Below are positions 2,989 through 45,054 of a DNA stretch of 46,870 nucleotides, in pieces. The translations under genes and the position numbers were made by a program. This stretch comes from a virus. The stretch's first letter is position 1. Each line of letters begins with the position of its first letter. The stretch spans positions 1-46,870 of the IMG/VR virus record IMGVR_UViG_3300009285_002163, one strand, 5' to 3'. The notes under the pieces are model-generated. The model saw nothing but the letters and a program-made list of their open reading frames with translations, was not told the origin of the DNA and ran no database searches.

Positions 2989-3357
2989 ATGAACAAGGAC
3001 CGAGTAGAAAAGGTCACACGAACGCTTCGTTGTGACCTAACGAATGATGAGCGGCTGAAGTTTGGAGGGGAACTGGCCGACGCGAATCAAGCGCATATTG
3101 AAATTGACGCCGATAAAACAGAAGCAATGGCCGATTTCAAGGTGAGACTGTCAACACTTGAAGCCGAGATTGTCAGATTGTGCCGTATCGTGCGAGACGG
3201 TTATGAGTTACGGCCGATTAAATGTGAAATGCGTTTTGATGTCCCAGATATTGGCCGCGTGTCGATAATTCGGTTAGACAACGAGGAAATCGTTACCGAG
3301 CGTGCTATGAGTGAGGATGAATTACGAGAAGCGATGCAATTAGAGGAGCAGAGATGA
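2989..3357 (+). CDS. Conserved phage hypothetical protein (122 aa)
   Basis: The protein opens with RVEKVTRTLRCDLTNDERL and has a central helical, probably coiled-coil segment (AMADFKVRLSTLEAEIVRL), then a paired-strand tail (YELRPIKCEMRFDVPDIGRV) ending in a Met/Glu-rich helix. I recall this organisation from many phage genomes, where it is an uncharacterised early protein; it is not an enzyme I can name. GTAGGAG and GGAAG precede the ATG. Part of its coding sequence is repeated in degenerate form just upstream. Confidence 0.75.
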   Translation: MNKDRVEKVTRTLRCDLTNDERLKFGGELADANQAHIEIDADKTEAMADFKVRLSTLEAEIVRLCRIVRDGYELRPIKCEMRFDVPDIGRVSIIRLDNEEIVTERAMSEDELREAMQLEEQR

Positions 3358-3410
3358 ACGTATTGGCAAAGGAAATCTGTGACCAGCTTATCAAGGGCGA
3401 TCAGTGGTGA
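3354..3410 (+). CDS. 18-aa micro-ORF or truncated gene start
   Basis: An ATGA overlap with the preceding stop opens an 18-codon frame (MNVLAKEICDQLIKGDQW). The beginning MNVLA is shared with a shorter frame at 2935. It probably is what is left of a gene cut off where the minus-strand P63C-like gene begins to overlap; function unknown. Confidence 0.3.
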   Translation: MNVLAKEICDQLIKGDQW

Positions 3411-3711
3411 GGATTTCTTTGTCTCGGCACTGTAAGAGAAACTCACATAGATCGGTTAAAACTGTGGCCTCGTATCCGTAAGCTGATCGTCCCCCATGTG
3501 GGGGCTGAAAGAGAATCGGATTATTCAAGCGCGCCACTAATTCTTTGGCTTCTATGCCCTTAACCTCAAGACGACCCGTTAAGTTGATTAATCTGCGCGC
3601 GCCGGTCTCTACGGCACCTCCCGATGACATGCCTATGCTTCTTTGAAGACCCCGCTGGGAAATAACTCGTGTTTCATCTTCGGACTGTCCCAGATTAAGG
3701 TAGTAGGCCAT
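3391..3711 (-). CDS. P63C-type N-terminal domain protein, copy 1 (C-terminally short)
   Basis: The 106-residue product matches by eye the N-terminal half of P63C-domain proteins: EDETRVISQRGLQRSIG, then a 'P I L F Q P P H G G R S A Y G Y' segment and EATVLTDLCEFLLQCRDKEIL. In the full-length proteins I remember, this region continues into a helical section and the P63C domain proper, both missing here. A second copy sits at 4282 to 4614. I take the ATG at 3711; the frame is open further upstream but would run into the ImmA/IrrE gene. It diverges from that peptidase gene. Function unknown; a DNA-binding regulatory role is conceivable. Confidence 0.6.
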   Translation of the reverse strand: MAYYLNLGQSEDETRVISQRGLQRSIGMSSGGAVETGARRLINLTGRLEVKGIEAKELVARLNNPILFQPPHGGRSAYGYEATVLTDLCEFLLQCRDKEILTTDRP

Positions 3712-3734
3712 TAAATGATTGACAAGTTGCTCAG

Positions 3735-3769
3735 TATAATACGAGATTGTCCTTTGGTTGGAAGGACAA
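3735..3769 (+). promoter_or_regulatory. TATAAT box and 8-bp inverted repeat over the ImmA/IrrE ribosome site
   Basis: A perfect TATAAT lies at 3735 to 3740, followed by TTGTCCTT (3747-3754), a seven-base loop and AAGGACAA (3762-3769). The right arm contains the AAGGA ribosome site of the GTG start at 3775. The repeat could be an operator or an RNA hairpin that hides the ribosome site. A TTGACA at 3719 is only 10 bases from the -10 box, so no normal -35 is visible. Confidence 0.55.
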
Positions 3770-3774
3770 AAGGT

Positions 3775-4305
3775 GTGAGTCACGATTTTGATTTGAGTGA
3801 AACAAAGCAAGCAGCCCAAAACGCCGCCAAAGAAATGCTAAAAGCTTGTTGGGCGCCAGAGAAGTTCCCGGTTGACCCCTACTCCATAGCGGAGAAGGCG
3901 GGAGCGCAAGTAACGTTCATAGAATTGCCGAACGATGTTGCCGGTGGGCTATTGAAAGAGCCCGATTCAACGCCAATTATTTTCATCAATCAGGCCGATC
4001 ATCCAAACCGGAAAAGATTCACTTGTGCTCACGAGCTCGGTCACTTCTATAAACGATTTACGGATAAGCACTATGAATACTATGACAATCGCAATGCGAT
4101 GTCTTCAAGCGGCGAAAATGTCGAAGAGGTTTTCGCAAATCAATTTGCCGCCAATCTGTTAATGCCTGAAGAAGCCGTAAAAGCGAAATTCTCCGAGCTT
4201 CGAGCCGCTCACAATGAAACCATAGCCGCCATAGTCTCGACCTCCCACTTTGGCGTTTCCCAAGAAGCACTGAATTTTCGGCTAAATAACCTTGGACTCA
4301 TCTGA
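3775..4305 (+). CDS. ImmA/IrrE-family zinc metallopeptidase
   Basis: The 176-residue product has the family layout: a helical N-terminus, a strand region ending in TPIIFINQADHPNRKRF, the zinc motif AHELGHF (HELGH at about 86 to 90), and the third-ligand helix VEEVFANQFAANLLMP (Glu near 118). Relatives cleave or inactivate XRE-type repressors, as ImmA does for ImmR in ICEBs1. The frame opens at 3715, but the GTG at 3775 has GGAAGGA in front and lies behind a TATAAT box, so I take it as the start. No XRE repressor is visible next to it; the neighbours are P63C-type genes on the other strand. Confidence 0.88.
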   Translation: MSHDFDLSETKQAAQNAAKEMLKACWAPEKFPVDPYSIAEKAGAQVTFIELPNDVAGGLLKEPDSTPIIFINQADHPNRKRFTCAHELGHFYKRFTDKHYEYYDNRNAMSSSGENVEEVFANQFAANLLMPEEAVKAKFSELRAAHNETIAAIVSTSHFGVSQEALNFRLNNLGLI

Positions 4306-4614
4306 ACAACAAATTCCCGATGAAACCTGTTGCGCTTCCGTCAAAGCGCCCTTTTCTCGCGCTTTAAGCCAGATATTACAAACTTCCGGTAAGAGTGTTG
4401 CCGGAATACCTTGAGCCTTGCCTCCCGTTTTGGTTATGTAAGTTATTGGCGTTAAAAGCGTTTCGCGGACATTATCGGTGATGTATGGAGCAAGATTCTT
4501 TGCTGAAATATACTCCGGAAGCAAAGCGCCTTTTTCGCCGCCTTCTCGCTTCTTTTTCCAGTGCGCACCACTACCTTTTCTGCCAAGCGAATTTGCGACA
4601 TTATGTTCAATCAA
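4282..4614 (-). CDS. P63C-type N-terminal domain protein, copy 2 (possibly frameshifted)
   Basis: The 110-residue frame contains GRKGSGAHWKKKREGG, LLPEYISAKNLAPYI and an ATLLPEVCNIWLKAREKGALTEAQQ run, as in the N-terminal half of P63C-domain proteins, and then stops, like copy 1. Family-like sequence (GFEIGCANLDDGTRIL) continues upstream in frame to 4665 without ATG, GTG or TTG. A strong GGGAGG instead serves a 14-codon frame (TTG 4655 to TGA 4611) whose stop overlaps the TTG at 4614. The gene is therefore either translated by reinitiation from a leader or broken by an old frameshift. It overlaps the ImmA/IrrE gene tail to tail by 24 bases. Confidence 0.55.
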   Translation of the reverse strand: MIEHNVANSLGRKGSGAHWKKKREGGEKGALLPEYISAKNLAPYITDNVRETLLTPITYITKTGGKAQGIPATLLPEVCNIWLKAREKGALTEAQQVSSGICCSDESKVI

Positions 4615-4679
4615 TATTCTCGTGCCATCATCGAGATTGGCGCAGCCGATTTCAAATCCTCCCTTTCAAGCAACTGTTT

Positions 4680-4717
4680 TGTGTCAAAAATGACACACCT
4701 GTGTCAAATTTGCCACA
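4680..4717. promoter_or_regulatory. Two tandem 18-bp palindromic operators
   Basis: TGTGTCA-AAAA-TGACACA (4680-4697) is a perfect palindrome. TGTGTCA-AATT-TGCCACA (4700-4717) is a second copy with one mismatch. The copies start 20 bases apart, about two helical turns, so two dimers would bind the same face. They lie between the minus-strand P63C copy 2 and the plus-strand terminase small subunit, which is a repressor-operator arrangement. The cognate protein is not evident. Confidence 0.65.
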
Positions 4718-4723
4718 AATCTC

Positions 4724-4752
4724 TTGACAGATAGCATAAAATCACTTATGCC
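4724..4752 (+). promoter_or_regulatory. Possible sigma70 promoter for the terminase/structural genes
   Basis: TTGACA at 4724 to 4729 is followed after 17 bases by TATGCC, a weak -10. It sits directly downstream of the tandem operators. The -35 is perfect but the -10 matches only three of six, so this is tentative. Confidence 0.3.
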
Positions 4753-4772
4753 CTAAAATTGTGCAAAAGAAA

Positions 4773-5144
4773 ATGGGCAGGCCTAAAAAACCAATCGACT
4801 GGAGTAAGGTCGATGACCTCTGTGGCATCGTCTGCACGGAAGCCGAAATAGTGTCCCTTATGAAGGTCGGAGTCTCAACTCTCGCAAGAGCTTGCGAAGC
4901 CGACCACGGAATGACTTTTGAACAATACTATAAAATCAAAACAGACGGGGCCAAGTCAAGTCTAAGGCGGGCACAGTATAAGCTCGCTCTGGCCGGAAAC
5001 CCTACAATGCTTATCTGGCTTGGAAAGCAGATGCTCGGACAGAAGGATCGAAACGACTGGACTGGCACCTTGCAAGTAACTGACGTTGACTCAATCCGTC
5101 AGGCCAGTATCGAAAGAGCTGTAGAGAAGGCAAGGGCGAAGTGA
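4773..5144 (+). CDS. terS: Terminase small subunit-like DNA-packaging protein
   Basis: The 123-residue protein begins GRPKKPIDWSKVDDLCGIVCTEAEI, a helix-turn-helix region of the kind found at the front of phage small terminases. It continues with FEQYYKIKTDGAKSSLRRAQYKLALAGNPTMLIWLGKQMLGQ, a segment very typical of these proteins (substrate helix followed by 'WLGKQ.LGQ.D'). The C-terminus is basic. It recognises packaging sites and stimulates the large subunit. I prefer the ATG at 4773; an in-frame GTG at 4761 would add four residues, and neither has a good ribosome site. It is 305 bases upstream of terL. Confidence 0.8.
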   Translation: MGRPKKPIDWSKVDDLCGIVCTEAEIVSLMKVGVSTLARACEADHGMTFEQYYKIKTDGAKSSLRRAQYKLALAGNPTMLIWLGKQMLGQKDRNDWTGTLQVTDVDSIRQASIERAVEKARAK

Positions 5145-5449
5145 AACCGTTTAAGCCGTTGATTGATATAGGTTTCTGGCGTGCTATCAAGTTGCAAGCA
5201 GGTTAATAGCAGGGTGGCGGAATAGATTGATGAAATTTGCGGCGCGCCGAATTTCTTCTGGGACTAACTTCAGTGGAGAGAAGAACCAAGACGGGGAACC
5301 AATAGATTAGTTTAGGACTATGTTTCCCCTCCCTATCCCCTTTGAGGTGTATTGAATTAATATTGAATTAATATTAATTAAGGAGATTTTGAAAAGCGTG
5401 TCAACAAAAACTTTTAAGAAAAATGTAAGTCGATGAACGGCAACGTAAA
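5145..5449 (+). other. Intergenic region before terL with AT-rich repeats and coupled micro-ORFs
   Basis: No sizeable gene is visible. A GTG overlapping the terS stop opens a 21-codon frame (VKPFKPLIDIGFWRAIK...). At 5351 to 5380 ATTGAATTAAT occurs twice in tandem and is followed by ATTAATTA, the most AT-rich stretch nearby and a likely promoter or protein-binding site. AAGGAGA at 5380 then precedes two tiny frames (TTG 5389 to TGA 5436; ATG 5433 to TGA 5453), linked to each other and to terL by ATGA overlaps. Confidence 0.5.
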
Positions 5450-6943
5450 ATGACCCCCGCAGAATCTCTTGGCCTTACCGACCTACAGTTCCACATGGTC
5501 CAGTACATGCCGGAGGTCTTTATCGACTACTCGGCAACGTTCCACGCCGAAATGTCAAAGCTGCTGGTTGACTTCTCAGTCGAGAAGCTGGCCATCGAGG
5601 CATTCCGGGGGTCGGCCAAGTCCGCCTACATGAGTAAGGGGCTTCTCTCTTACTGCCCCACCATGCGGGCACCAGACGGCTCCTATCTTCTCGACAAGGC
5701 CTTTGTGTTCACCCAGTCCGGCGGTCCGGGATCGCTGGCCTTTCAGTGGATGGAGTTCTTTAAGTCACTCATATCGGGAGAATTGGATAATCAACGGCTC
5801 TATCAGCATGACTACGGATTCAAGGCGTCTCAGCCCTGGACACAGAGCCATTGCCGGATAACTCGGCCCGGCGGGGCAGACTTTGAGGTGCGAATACAGG
5901 GCAAGGGCGGGTCAACCCGTGGCGCTCGTGACCCCAAAGCCATCATTCTATTGGACGACATTCAGGACGCCGCCGACCAGACATCAGAGGCAATTCTGAC
6001 TTCCGACGAAATGTGGCTGATTAACGATGTTTACCCTATGCTCTTAGCTGGCCAGCCAATGCGGGCAATCGGGCAGAACTTGTCCGCCGATTCCATTATG
6101 TCGAGGATAGAGCGGATGCCGAGCTTCAAATATGTGCGGTTCCCGATAGAGACCTTTGTTGGCTCAGGCGTCTCGGTTTGGCCAGGCCACTATTCGGATG
6201 TCTGGCTCGAAGCACAGAAAAGGGATATGGGGATCGACAGATTTAACGCCGAGTACAACTGTGTTCCGATGGTGTCGGGGAACCCTATTTTCCGCAAGGA
6301 CTGGTTCAAGACATACGACCCCAACTCAGTTCAATGGGAGCGTATCAAGAACGGTTATCTCTATACGGTTATGGGGTTTGACGGGGCAGACAGCAAGTCG
6401 GAAGCCGCCTGTGAGACGGCCATCATCGTCGTCAGTGCTACTGCCGATGCCGACCCTGATGTCTACCTAAGAACCGTTAAGCACGACCATTGGACCCTGA
6501 AACAGGCGGTCGGTCAGTTATTCCAAACCGCAAGGGACATCGAGGTACATTCTACCCAAGTCGAAAGCAGAGTGAAAGAGGGGAATATGGGGCCGTACGA
6601 AGAGGAAATCAGGTCACAGGAGGCCTTGCTTCGCGAGTCCCTGAACGCAACCTATGTCCGGCCGACCCACGACAAGGTAACGCGGGCGCTGTACGCCCAA
6701 CCGATAATTCAGAGGGGTAAGTTCCACTACAATCCCCAAGACCAGTCTCATGTAGCTTTCGTTACGCAGATGTGCATGTTCACGGGCACGCAACGGTTCC
6801 CGGCGGACATGGTAGACGCTGGGGTGCATGCGTTGACACAGATAAAAGAACATAGTGGTAAATCAACGAAACGTGTGACCGGCGGTATTGTTGCTCCCCA
6901 CGCGGTTGCCCAAAGGGACGAACATACGGGGATACTGTTGTGA
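5450..6943 (+). CDS. terL: Terminase large subunit
   Basis: This is the ATPase-nuclease motor that packages DNA into the prohead. The 497 residues contain a Walker A variant FRGSAKS near 50 to 56 (compare the RG..KS form in T7-type terminases), Walker B IILLDD near 165 to 170, and the RNase H-type nuclease domain starting with GFDGADSK near 308, whose Asp would be the first metal ligand, with another acidic site in the C-terminal VDAGVHAL helix. The ATG overlaps a micro-ORF stop (ATGA) and has no ribosome site of its own, so translation is probably coupled. It is followed by a small gene and the portal, as usual. Confidence 0.93.
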   Translation: MTPAESLGLTDLQFHMVQYMPEVFIDYSATFHAEMSKLLVDFSVEKLAIEAFRGSAKSAYMSKGLLSYCPTMRAPDGSYLLDKAFVFTQSGGPGSLAFQWMEFFKSLISGELDNQRLYQHDYGFKASQPWTQSHCRITRPGGADFEVRIQGKGGSTRGARDPKAIILLDDIQDAADQTSEAILTSDEMWLINDVYPMLLAGQPMRAIGQNLSADSIMSRIERMPSFKYVRFPIETFVGSGVSVWPGHYSDVWLEAQKRDMGIDRFNAEYNCVPMVSGNPIFRKDWFKTYDPNSVQWERIKNGYLYTVMGFDGADSKSEAACETAIIVVSATADADPDVYLRTVKHDHWTLKQAVGQLFQTARDIEVHSTQVESRVKEGNMGPYEEEIRSQEALLRESLNATYVRPTHDKVTRALYAQPIIQRGKFHYNPQDQSHVAFVTQMCMFTGTQRFPADMVDAGVHALTQIKEHSGKSTKRVTGGIVAPHAVAQRDEHTGILL

Positions 6944-7158
6944 CCGAAGAAGTTAAAGTTGAGGAAGAAATAGCGTCGTATCTGACCGAGGATGACTACC
7001 GGATTATCATCAAGGACAGCATGCAGAGAAACATTGGGAATCTTATGGTACCGCGCGGCATGATACTGAATGACCACAACCTCTTGGACAACATAGCCAA
7101 AGCCGTGTTTGCCCGCATCTACAAGCACCAGAAACGAGGCGGCAATGGAACTCATTGA
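6940..7158 (+). CDS. Small protein between terminase and portal (72 aa)
   Basis: A GTG overlaps the terL stop. The acidic, helical product (MTEEVKVEEEIASYLTEDDYRIIIKDSM...) ends in a basic tail. It overlaps the portal start by 14 bases. No family is recognised. Its position suggests a packaging or head role. Confidence 0.65.
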   Translation: MTEEVKVEEEIASYLTEDDYRIIIKDSMQRNIGNLMVPRGMILNDHNLLDNIAKAVFARIYKHQKRGGNGTH

Positions 7159-8944
7159 TCTTGATAAGGCCGACGCCGTTTCGGTCGTAAATGACTTTTA
7201 CTGGATAGCAAAAGAGTACCAAAACCCTCGCTTCGTCCAGTCCCGGAGGGATTATATGGCTTACCATGCCATCAGGAACCTGTCCGGTGCCGACATGACT
7301 ACCCCCAATGTGGCGATCCCCAAACTCTTTTCGGTGGTTGAGTCTGAAACGCCCTCCGAAATGAAGGGTTTGTTTCCCCGGCGGCCGTATGCCGAGTGGG
7401 AGGCCATGCGGAAGAAAGATTATGGTCTCTTGTCTCAGTGGCAGAATCAGCTTTTGGACTTTTACCTTGAGACCGGCGGGTTTATGGTCGAGATGTTTTT
7501 GGCCATGAAGATTAAGCGGCTGTACGGTACGGCATTTATGGAGGCAGTTCCGTATTACGAAACAATCACCGAAGCTGGGGGGACAGTCAATGCTTGGGGC
7601 GGGTTGGACATCACCAAAAAGCAGGTTGAGCGGCTTAGGTTTCGGCACGAATGCTTTGCGCCTTGGGACATATTCTTTCACCCGTTGACTCGGAACCTGG
7701 AAGACAAGAAAGGCTGTCCGGGCCTTCTCAAGTTCCGGCTGATGTCAAAGCGGGATATCATTCGGGATGCACCGAAATACTATCCCCAGATGGATTTGCA
7801 GAAAGCCCGGCAATCGGACTGGTCACAGTTCCGCGACCATGAAGGGTATAAGATACTCCGAGAGTGGGGGCTTGATGAGCCTCAGTACGATTCTGATTTC
7901 GCTCTGGTGGTCAGTCTTGAGACGCCTGACAGGTATGCGGATATTCTGAATGGTACGTTGCTTATGAGGGAATCGACGAGCAACCCCTTCAATCACGGGA
8001 AAGTCAATCTGAGTCGAGTAATACATACCGTTGACCCGCATACTCAAAACAGACTGTGGGGCATAGGAGAGGCGAAACCTTCTGAGGCCATGACTCACTT
8101 GCTCAATGTCTGGTGGTCTCTCATGCTGGCCAAACAAGCCTTTGAGTCTCAACCGGTTGTGTTTTTCGACGAAGACAGGTTGAACAAAGAGGACTTGCGG
8201 TGGACGCAGCATAACCGAATCCCCGTTAAAAGAGACGCGACAATGGCCACGCGGCCAATCTCGGACTCTTTCTATGTTCATTCCGGCACGGGTGTTCCGG
8301 CGTCCGAGTTTGCGATTGTAGACAAAATCGAGCGGCAGATTGATGAGGCGGCTGTCTTTTTCAATCCCCGTCCTCAGGAAAGAGGCGCGCAGAATCCCAC
8401 CGCCACAGAGGTTATGAAGGCAGATAGTAAGGGATCGGCTAAACAGGAGTACATGGTATGGCTTGCCGAACAGGTTTTCATCAAAGAACACACCTCGAAA
8501 CTGATGTCGTCGATTGACCAGTTTTCCACGATTGACGACAAGGCCGAGGTGTTGGGGCCGGAGATAGCCGGGTTTGTGGCGACGGTCAACCCGCAGGAGA
8601 TACCGGGCGGGTCGAGGTTTCTTTTCAAGGGGTCTGGCAGGCTGGCGAATCAGATTATCAAACAGCAGAACCTCATGGCGCTTAATCCGATTATTCAGTC
8701 AACGACGAATATGCCCTACCTTAGACAAACCCTTGAAGCCTTTGACTTTACGGCCGAGGAAATTCAGGAAGTTCTACAGTGGAAACAACAGGAGATGATG
8801 GCTCAGGCGCAAGCGGCCCAGATTGAGGCTGAGACAAGCGCCGTGGTGGCCCGGTCGAAGTTGAATCCTCCGACAAAAGCTACCGATGACACCGGAGCTG
8901 AGCAGAGAGGGATGCAGAGAACGGCGGAAAGGGCTTTGGCATGA
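7145..8944 (+). CDS. Portal protein
   Basis: The 599-residue product lies directly after terL and before the scaffold and capsid genes, where portals lie. It has the expected mixed alpha/beta body, the 'IGEAKPSEAMTHLLNVWWSLML' long-helix region (about 300 to 325), the 'NPTATEVMKAD' segment near 417 that many podovirus-type portals share (N.TATEV), and a Gln/Ala-rich C-terminal helix (KQQEMMAQAQAAQIEAE), as in the barrel helices of other portals. The frame opens at 7109, but the ATG at 7145 has GAGG in front and is preferred. It would form the dodecameric ring through which DNA is packaged. Confidence 0.85.
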   Translation: MELIDLDKADAVSVVNDFYWIAKEYQNPRFVQSRRDYMAYHAIRNLSGADMTTPNVAIPKLFSVVESETPSEMKGLFPRRPYAEWEAMRKKDYGLLSQWQNQLLDFYLETGGFMVEMFLAMKIKRLYGTAFMEAVPYYETITEAGGTVNAWGGLDITKKQVERLRFRHECFAPWDIFFHPLTRNLEDKKGCPGLLKFRLMSKRDIIRDAPKYYPQMDLQKARQSDWSQFRDHEGYKILREWGLDEPQYDSDFALVVSLETPDRYADILNGTLLMRESTSNPFNHGKVNLSRVIHTVDPHTQNRLWGIGEAKPSEAMTHLLNVWWSLMLAKQAFESQPVVFFDEDRLNKEDLRWTQHNRIPVKRDATMATRPISDSFYVHSGTGVPASEFAIVDKIERQIDEAAVFFNPRPQERGAQNPTATEVMKADSKGSAKQEYMVWLAEQVFIKEHTSKLMSSIDQFSTIDDKAEVLGPEIAGFVATVNPQEIPGGSRFLFKGSGRLANQIIKQQNLMALNPIIQSTTNMPYLRQTLEAFDFTAEEIQEVLQWKQQEMMAQAQAAQIEAETSAVVARSKLNPPTKATDDTGAEQRGMQRTAERALA

Positions 8945-37090: not shown

Positions 37091-38035
37091 TTATGGCTTC
37101 TCCATGACCAGTAGGTCTGGTTTCTGGTCCCACAGATTTCCGTCCAGCAGACGGTGCTCACCAAGCACCTTTGCATATCTGCCGTGCCTGAACATATCCC
37201 CCTGCTTTTCGTGAGTCTTCCAATCCCGATATGGATGCGTGACCCATTCACCCCATGCCTTAAAGTGGAACGGCACCCCCGCCGCAACGCACTGGTCACG
37301 GAGAGACCTAACCCAATCAGGGTGCATAGGCCGAGCGCCAGGGCCACTCTCTCCGCCGACTATTGTCCAGTCAATACCGGGATATGAATCGTCGTACCCT
37401 TCTGGCGGCTCATGCGGTGAGCCAACGGTCGTACCGCCATGTTTGATTACCGCTGGTCCTTCAAGGATTCCATCAGAGGTATCAAATAACGTGATCGGGG
37501 CGAGTAGCGGCTCAAGACTCACGAACCTCTTGGCCGCTGCTATCGAAAGCAGTATCGGTATCCTCTCGTCCGCCCGTTCCTGATTCTCCGCAGTCACGCC
37601 AAGCCAGACGTTGGGGATTGGGAGGGGCCACGTTTTGGAGTCAACAGTCGTAAGTTGGTCGAAGAACATCTTCATTCGCTCTGGTCTCTTCGTCAATAAC
37701 ATGAATGTGCAGTTGGGGCACGCGGCTGCCCGGTCGATCACAAGATGAATGAGACCGAACGGCACATTCTCATGAAACAGGTCGCACATACTCGCCACGA
37801 AGATCGTGCGCGGCTTCCGCCAGTGGAGCGGCTGCGCCAGTATGCGCTCGTCGAGATAGAAGTCCGTCGGCTTGTACTGGTAGTCGTACTCGCGGCCAGC
37901 GAAAAGGCGCTTGTTCATCCGACTCGCATAGCAGTTCAGGCACCCTTCGGACACCTTCGTGCAGCCAAACCCACCAGACCGTACCTTGAGCGGATTCCAG
38001 GTGTGGGAGGCCCATTCGATTTTAGTTTTCCCCAT
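37091..38035 (-). CDS. DUF5131 / phage Gp37-Gp68 family protein
   Basis: The ATG at 38035 has GGAGGG seven bases upstream and gives 314 residues, a normal length. The start MGKTKIEWASHTWNPLKV is diagnostic. Cys25, Cys32 and Cys35 (CTKVSEGCLNC) form a CX6CX2C cluster, and later blocks are FVASMCDLFHE, FMLLTKRPERM, NVWLGVTAENQ, ERIPILL, RFVSLEPLL and WTIVGGESGPGARPM, ending with FHFKAWGEW. The cluster suggests a metal or iron-sulfur site, as in radical-SAM-like enzymes. The reaction is unknown. The family is frequent in phages and mobile elements. Confidence 0.9.
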   Translation of the reverse strand: MGKTKIEWASHTWNPLKVRSGGFGCTKVSEGCLNCYASRMNKRLFAGREYDYQYKPTDFYLDERILAQPLHWRKPRTIFVASMCDLFHENVPFGLIHLVIDRAAACPNCTFMLLTKRPERMKMFFDQLTTVDSKTWPLPIPNVWLGVTAENQERADERIPILLSIAAAKRFVSLEPLLAPITLFDTSDGILEGPAVIKHGGTTVGSPHEPPEGYDDSYPGIDWTIVGGESGPGARPMHPDWVRSLRDQCVAAGVPFHFKAWGEWVTHPYRDWKTHEKQGDMFRHGRYAKVLGEHRLLDGNLWDQKPDLLVMEKP

Positions 38036-38288
38036 TACCGTTCCCTCCGAGTTCAGGGGGTGGCTCTTTGCCATGCTGTCCCTCTCCGCATTGCGCGTCC
38101 ACATCCTTGATGTAGATGGTCAGATGGACGGCACGGGCGCAATGACCGTATCGACGAAAGCCGCCGATTGATCGGGACAATGAAATATCATTGAATGATG
38201 ACACCTTATGCGTTAACCCGTCATCCATGAGAACCCCGTAGCCCTCCGCCATCCTCGTCCCGTCCGGTAGTGTCGTGACTTTAAGCAT
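38022..38288 (-). CDS. Hypothetical protein (88 aa)
   Basis: The ATG at 38288 has GAGGA six bases upstream and lies in the 3' end of the previous gene. The product starts MLKVTTLPDGTRMAEGYGVLMDDGL and has a mixed beta-strand body with a Gly/Asn-rich tail (GGNGNGEN). It overlaps the DUF5131 gene by 14 bases. The family is not recognised. Confidence 0.6.
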   Translation of the reverse strand: MLKVTTLPDGTRMAEGYGVLMDDGLTHKVSSFNDISLSRSIGGFRRYGHCARAVHLTIYIKDVDAQCGEGQHGKEPPPELGGNGNGEN

Positions 38289-44857: not shown

Positions 44858-45054
44858 GGGTTTCCCTTCTTCGTAAATCCGTCACACGATTCAAGCCAAA
44901 TGGGGTCAAAATTGAAGGGCCAAAAAAACCACCCACTTGCTCTGCCATGCGGATTCCCGGTTACGTTTGCGTTAGTGTTTGCGCACTCACTATGGCAATC
45001 GCCAGGGATTGACCGCCGGTGCAAGCATTCATAACAATTCGGTTTTGTACTCAT
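44854..45054 (-). CDS. Conserved Cys-rich phage protein (66 aa)
   Basis: The protein reads MSTKPNCYECLHRRSIPGD and later GWFFWPFNFDPIWLESCDGF; the 'CYECxHR..IPGD.HS.C' and 'GWF.WPFNFDP.WL..C.GF' blocks belong to a family I recognise from many phages. The four or five Cys and a His probably bind zinc. Function unknown. It overlaps both neighbours by ATGA. Confidence 0.85.
   Translation of the reverse strand: MSTKPNCYECLHRRSIPGDCHSECANTNANVTGNPHGRASGWFFWPFNFDPIWLESCDGFTKKGNP

Follow-up and report, generated by a model that had tools for sequence, protein, structure and literature searches.

Two shortened P63C-family genes flanking an ImmA/IrrE protease in a divergent phage genome: a possible decayed immunity cassette

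Introduction

The described systems closest to the locus analysed here include the ImmR-ImmA pair of ICEBs1 and MpaR, the protease of the Listeria monocin. Both have an M78 (DUF955) protease with an intact zinc site, as does our phage, which differs from the ImmR-ImmA system in that its record holds no adjacent or recognisable HTH repressor. According to passages of the report describing it, MpaR acts on repressors of other elements (PMC6872733), and this is the mode of action that we favour below for the phage protease.

The second component, P63C, belongs to a gene family that is widespread among phages and transposons, and for which passages of the literature on the phage/genome domain give no function. 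Its typical proteins (phrog_2384 plus PF10546) have the N half in common with the two copies described here, in which PF10546 and the upstream site ATGCWWGCAT are missing. In the P22-like immunity regions of SPN9CC and Midgardsormr38, cI is followed by P63C, so that the gene stands in a regulatory neighbourhood as it does in our phage; unlike there, the repressor is intact, the P63C gene is full-length and no adjoining M78 gene is annotated. An element of Leucobacter (found in two collections, loci L056 and L088) is the sole fetched relative in which M78 and P63C lie side by side as in the phage, but all on one strand, with a full-length P63C gene and with an HTH gene and an integrase (gene order HTH - M78 - P63C - integrase). 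This order suggests that where P63C and ImmA meet, the natural substrate of the protease is the HTH gene product.

Genome context of the locus

IMGVR_UViG_3300009285_002163, a virus record from IMG/VR, is 46,870 bases long and was analysed over its full length (henceforth the window). The genes of interest are located after the replication genes and before the packaging genes, with a DnaB-like helicase, a RusA-like resolvase (weak match, E 8e-4) and small unknown genes to the left and TerS (weak match, E 3e-5) and TerL to the right. An earlier note, made from the letters of the window, had described three ORFs here, two P63C-like copies on the minus strand flanking an M78 protease on the opposite strand, and matches to phrog_2384 and PF06114 bear this out (Table 1).

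Table 1. Coordinates, strand and supporting evidence of the features discussed.
Feature	Position	Strand	Evidence
Copy 1, P63C-family N-terminal half	3391..3711	-	phrog_2384 match, alignment, tree
ImmA/IrrE (M78) metalloprotease	3775..4305 (in-frame ATG 3715)	+	PF06114, capP profile, coding score
Dyad TTGTCCTT-7-AAGGACAA, putatively operator-like, separating copy 1 from the divergent protease gene	3747..3769	.	by eye
Copy 2, P63C-family N-terminal half	4282..4665	-	phrog_2384 match, codon scan, coding score, tree
Palindrome TGTGTCAAAAATGACACA, operator-like	4680..4697	.	palindrome search
Second, imperfect copy of the palindrome, TGTGTCAAATTTGCCACA, 20 bp on	4700..4717	.	palindrome search
P63C ORFs of other loci with upstream arrays, starting near	L014 1458; L025 897; L026 1937; L031 3375; L032 4821; L034 4797		

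No lysogeny module or lysogeny genes could be recognised in the window (1-46870), and its TerL had no relative among 50,697 phage records at E <= 1e-5, from which we conclude that the phage is very divergent. Searches with the TerL, protease, capsid and portal proteins found no close relative either. Six-frame searches of the record gave no HTH_3 repressor at E <= 1 and no tyrosine integrase, both families being matched in 14 of 14 control genomes, and the 43 other ORFs of the record contained no repressor family of Pfam at E <= 0.01. The absence of a repressor claimed in the earlier note is thus upheld, and a cognate HTH repressor adjoining the protease is absent. Elsewhere in the window, a minus-strand block with YqaJ exonuclease and RecT genes includes a DUF5131 protein (E 2.3e-83), found in a scan of the window ORFs and placed on 37091-38104 via its sequence.

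Two shortened P63C-family genes

Both copies match only the N-terminal half of phrog_2384, over about 95-110 residues (copy 1, E 7.2e-11, profile positions 66-158 of 338; copy 2, E 6.1e-26, positions 56-161). PF10546, the P63C domain proper, was found in neither, nor anywhere in six frames of the whole record at E <= 10, and no Pfam family matched either copy at E <= 1, the Bro-N and KilA-N models included. In six full-length phage relatives PF10546 follows the N half, and these proteins also lack a Pfam Bro-N or KilA-N match. Of the P63C N-terminal pattern previously reported for both copies, the N half of phrog_2384 is therefore what the profile search recovers, while the P63C domain is not present. 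The further claim of a shared end point in the family alignment was confirmed; the N domain is predicted to end there. In the numbering of a full-length relative, similarity is lost just past the equivalent of residue 109 in copy 2 and at about 106 in copy 1; a model of this relative (mean pLDDT 83.7, pTM 0.52, 50 sequences) has the final helix of the N domain reaching to residue 101 and another, long helix setting in at 107. Beyond its last similar residue copy 2 enters the protease gene at its 3' end, the final 24 bases of copy 2 overlapping that gene tail to tail. On the other side, copy 1 diverges from the protease gene at a distance of 3 to 63 bp.

The two copies are only about 25-30% identical, and a tree of 55 N domains places them far apart in different well-supported clades, which rules out duplication of a single gene as their origin. 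Copy 1 is sister to an Aestuariivirga gene (L094, support 99/98) and copy 2 to the viral locus L011 (support 100/92). Given these distant placements, two different P63C lineages appear to have entered the phage, each losing its C domain.

At the 5' side, copy 1 has an ATG, and the alignment shows that it is without the first beta strand of the N domain ('IxCYVL', with near-invariant Cys, Val and Leu). Copy 2 is bounded by an in-frame TGA just upstream (4666-4668) and does not have a start codon at 4665; its first in-frame ATG, GTG or TTG is the TTG at 4614, inside the domain, and none precedes the conserved core. A good ribosome-binding sequence, AAAGGGAGG, lies upstream and is suitably spaced from an ATC codon, which could serve as the start, although such a start would be very unusual. 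In 63 family ORFs the N domain begins no later than profile position 8, and of these only copy 2 and L011, its nearest relative, have no ATG, GTG or TTG before the domain. Reading the TGA as an amino acid that extends copy 2 upstream was rejected, the score rising only from 92.5 to 92.6 bits and the long genes of the window being open under table 11.

L011 is itself shortened in its C domain. Between copy 2 and L011, dN is 0.37 and dS 1.45, which speaks for selection over most of their separation but gives no such pointer for the recent past. L011 and L012 are one virus (99.98% identical), and hence the pair is unusable as a test of selection. In L011 a tRNA-Arg gene (5602-5671) begins about 30 bases after the end of the shortened P63C gene and is followed by a terminase-like gene.

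P63C relatives

To set the copies against their family, we assembled 56 loci from viral contigs and 28 from genome contigs together with loci from phage collections, leaving 65 after removal of near-identical N domains. Of the 69 family ORFs of these loci and the window, 55 were complete, with a start codon and both the N and the C domain, and most of the incomplete ones were frame-broken, shortened or cut at a contig end. Additional searches of 385 and 395 genomes gave matches in 13 and nine of them, the two centre genomes counted, and 21 new places, 13 complete and eight incomplete, six of the latter with stop codons. Of the open frames met here, one of 310 codons (L139) matches the C half only, and one of 225 codons (L129) has a partial N domain (profile positions 6-91) amid unrelated sequence, which we read as a probable remnant. 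An intact gene consisting of the N domain only was found neither in the 65 non-redundant loci nor in the 780 sampled genomes. One apparent member, L003, was discarded as a false match of 14 residues, its ORFs resembling tail genes.

M78 proteins near P63C were looked for in 94 loci by a motif search followed by Pfam, a procedure whose crude first step could miss proteases, and only the Leucobacter element was found. Of the trio that the earlier note proposed to look for in other phages, then, the M78 and P63C pair exists once among the fetched loci and the trio itself was not found.

The protease

The ORF at 3715-4305 is a Peptidase_M78 (PF06114, E 1.6e-21; 76.8 bits, the family cut-off being 22) with the zinc site FTCAHELGH (HExxH), and its frame has the best coding score. 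Translation probably starts at GTG 3775 and not at ATG 3715, since codon bias in 3715-3774 resembles that of non-coding DNA and GGAAGG lies 9 nt before the GTG. By its sequence it is an intact stand-alone ImmA/IrrE (M78) metalloprotease. The capP profile matches it as well (E 7.4e-28), as do RmrA profiles; M78 domains are so widespread that the capP match is no proof of a CBASS function. Its phage relatives, at 32-41% identity among the matches listed, come from phages of several hosts, and the protease of Escherichia phage vB_EcoM-705R4 is 41% identical. Four of their neighbourhoods were opened: in Gordonia phage Polly an HTH gene (gp32) follows the protease (gp29) three genes on, on the opposite strand, and in the other three no gene is named as HTH, though most genes there are unnamed.

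Upstream sites and the N domain

Many P63C genes share a sequence in front of them. Between 300 bp ahead of the ORF and 30 bp inside it, 29 of 65 loci contained ATGCTTG/CAAGCAT, whereas windows placed at random in these loci gave an expectation of 3.1. It is part of the near-palindrome ATGCWWGCAT, of which at least one match (at least 9 of 10 positions) was present in 18 of 65 loci (background 2.5%) and at least two in 15 (background 0.28%), with four copies about 22 bp apart in several phages. Thirteen complete loci from the later genome searches, held out from motif discovery, had at least one site in six cases (background 3.7%). The other 47 of the 65 loci were below threshold and the site-bearing ones are scattered over several clades of the tree (8 changes), the sites being seen here in part of the family and no established criterion of membership. 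Arrays of two to four copies, often 22 bp apart, extend up to the start codon, for example in L014, L025, L026, L031, L032 and L034 (Table 1). The decamer may possibly be a site of self-control of the family, and its being shared points to DNA binding and autoregulation by P63C proteins. Together with the repressor-neighbour contexts, these sites lend indirect support to a role of P63C proteins as regulators. Among the literature matches listed for the decamer, no title concerned a phage regulator.

Structural comparison of the N domain gave low scores. Its model had weak matches (Z 3.6-4.1) to DdrC, the Swi6 N-terminal domain, Dachshund and Ski-like proteins, several of which are DNA-binding folds; among viral models it weakly resembled the Mx8 phage protein p63, BRO-N and repressor/antirepressor proteins, with E of 0.048 or worse (for BRO-N, 0.08 or worse). 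For neither the N domain nor the full-length model did Foldseek return a PDB match below E 0.5, which is no proof of a new fold.

The window itself has no ATGCWWGCAT site (at least 9 of 10) at 3300-4800 and a single one in total, at 45019. Upstream of copy 2 it carries instead two tandem 18-bp palindromes, the only such pair in the window, with none in 20 shuffles; for the GTGTCA-TGACAC pair alone 0.02 occurrences are expected. Placed between copy 2 and TerS, they could be candidate sites for either. Upstream of other P63C genes these TGTGTCA palindromes had one match, with two mismatches and about 3 kb from the gene. Paired 12-bp palindromes were not found in the 65 loci, a filter that the near-palindromic decamer probably fails.

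Interpretation

The reading that we consider probable, though by no means certain, is that of a decayed immunity-type cassette whose sole intact part, the protease, acts in trans. The region would be a leftover of immunity-type regulatory genes between the replication and packaging genes, in which two P63C-family genes of different lineages have each lost the C-terminal domain, along with some of the 5' end, and probably no longer work. The protease, intact as far as its sequence tells, probably cleaves an HTH repressor like other ImmA/IrrE proteins, and since the record encodes no recognisable one, its target would have to come in trans from the host, from a resident prophage or from a part of the genome that is missing here. 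The tandem palindromes upstream of copy 2 probably form the operator for a regulator that is lost or unseen. Decay, which the earlier note had offered as its alternative, fits best: the relatives are nearly all full-length and no intact N-only gene was found in the loci and genomes searched; copy 2 and L011 stand alone without a standard start, L011 being shortened too; the copies fall in different clades; HTH_3, PF10546 and an integrase are missing from the record; elsewhere P63C often comes after a repressor (SPN9CC, Midgardsormr38, Leucobacter); and the described part of the MpaR case provides a precedent (PMC6872733). Against it, both frames (127 and 148 codons) are open, each the best-scoring of the six, and retain most of the near-invariant N-domain residues; the dN and dS values of copy 2 and L011, and the ribosome-binding sequence and operator-like palindromes upstream of copy 2, also weigh on this side. 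Loss at the same domain boundary in two independent lineages is an odd coincidence for plain decay, and no close phage relative was found for comparison.

Alternatively, the N-only proteins could be working mini-regulators. Their N domain would be of the Bro-N/KilA-N kind, would bind the TGTGTCA palindromes and would govern transcription from the copy 2 promoter and perhaps also the facing TerS gene, with the protease acting elsewhere. Both copies end at the predicted domain boundary, as this explanation would have it. The weak likeness to DNA-binding folds and to viral BRO-N and repressor models is in keeping with it, and the tandem palindromes occupy the place that upstream sites have in many family members. 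However, the structural scores do not suffice to establish the fold, ATGCWWGCAT is absent from the region, copy 1 lacks part of the domain and copy 2 a standard start, and intact N-only genes were not found elsewhere; we regard this explanation as a tentative second.

Less likely still, the protease could be a stand-alone weapon or counter-defence, for instance cleaving CapH-like HTH proteins of the host or of a prophage, with the P63C fragments irrelevant. The capP and RmrA matches agree with such a role, and so do the relatives, which come from phages of several hosts and in some cases have no HTH gene listed beside them, but a domain as widespread as M78 does not make the capP match proof of CBASS function. 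A bolder combination, in which two independently acquired, shortened P63C N domains would be minimal DNA-binding regulators on the TGTGTCA palindromes and ImmA would remove one or both, giving a switch without an HTH repressor, seems improbable to us. Least probable of all is the new type of switch proposed in the earlier note, in which ImmA cleaves P63C-like proteins serving as the repressor: the genes are neighbours, copy 1 and the protease being closely divergent, but the copies look damaged, copy 2 is tail to tail with the protease gene and forms no operon with it, the trio was not found elsewhere, and the one comparable pair, in Leucobacter, has an HTH gene upstream of the protease. A repressor gene in the gap of a relative, which the note itself took as contrary to its switch, is nearly what this element has, the gap there not being orthologous.

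As found, the decayed cassette with one working-looking part is of modest interest. The upstream site of the P63C family matters more, as its presence across several clades makes the function of the family directly testable (does the protein bind ATGCWWGCAT and control its own gene?).

P63C genes in other settings

Pairs of P63C genes occur elsewhere. In L066 two full-length genes of different type lie in tandem (4950-5834 and 6621-7499) with an HTH gene between them, recognised by an HTH_3 match slightly below the cut-off. Eight loci (L078, L089, L072, L076, L075, L092, L070 and L077) have an IS1595 (ISXO2-like) transposase beside P63C, which in seven of the eight is just downstream on the same strand. 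Inverted repeats enclose both genes in L089 (27 nt, 93%, 3865-3891 and 6627-6653) and in L075 (23 nt, 87%), and we read P63C in the IS1595 loci as a passenger gene of the transposon. In three further loci an IS1-like transposase is divergent to P63C, as seen by Pfam in L067 and L081 and by eye in L091.
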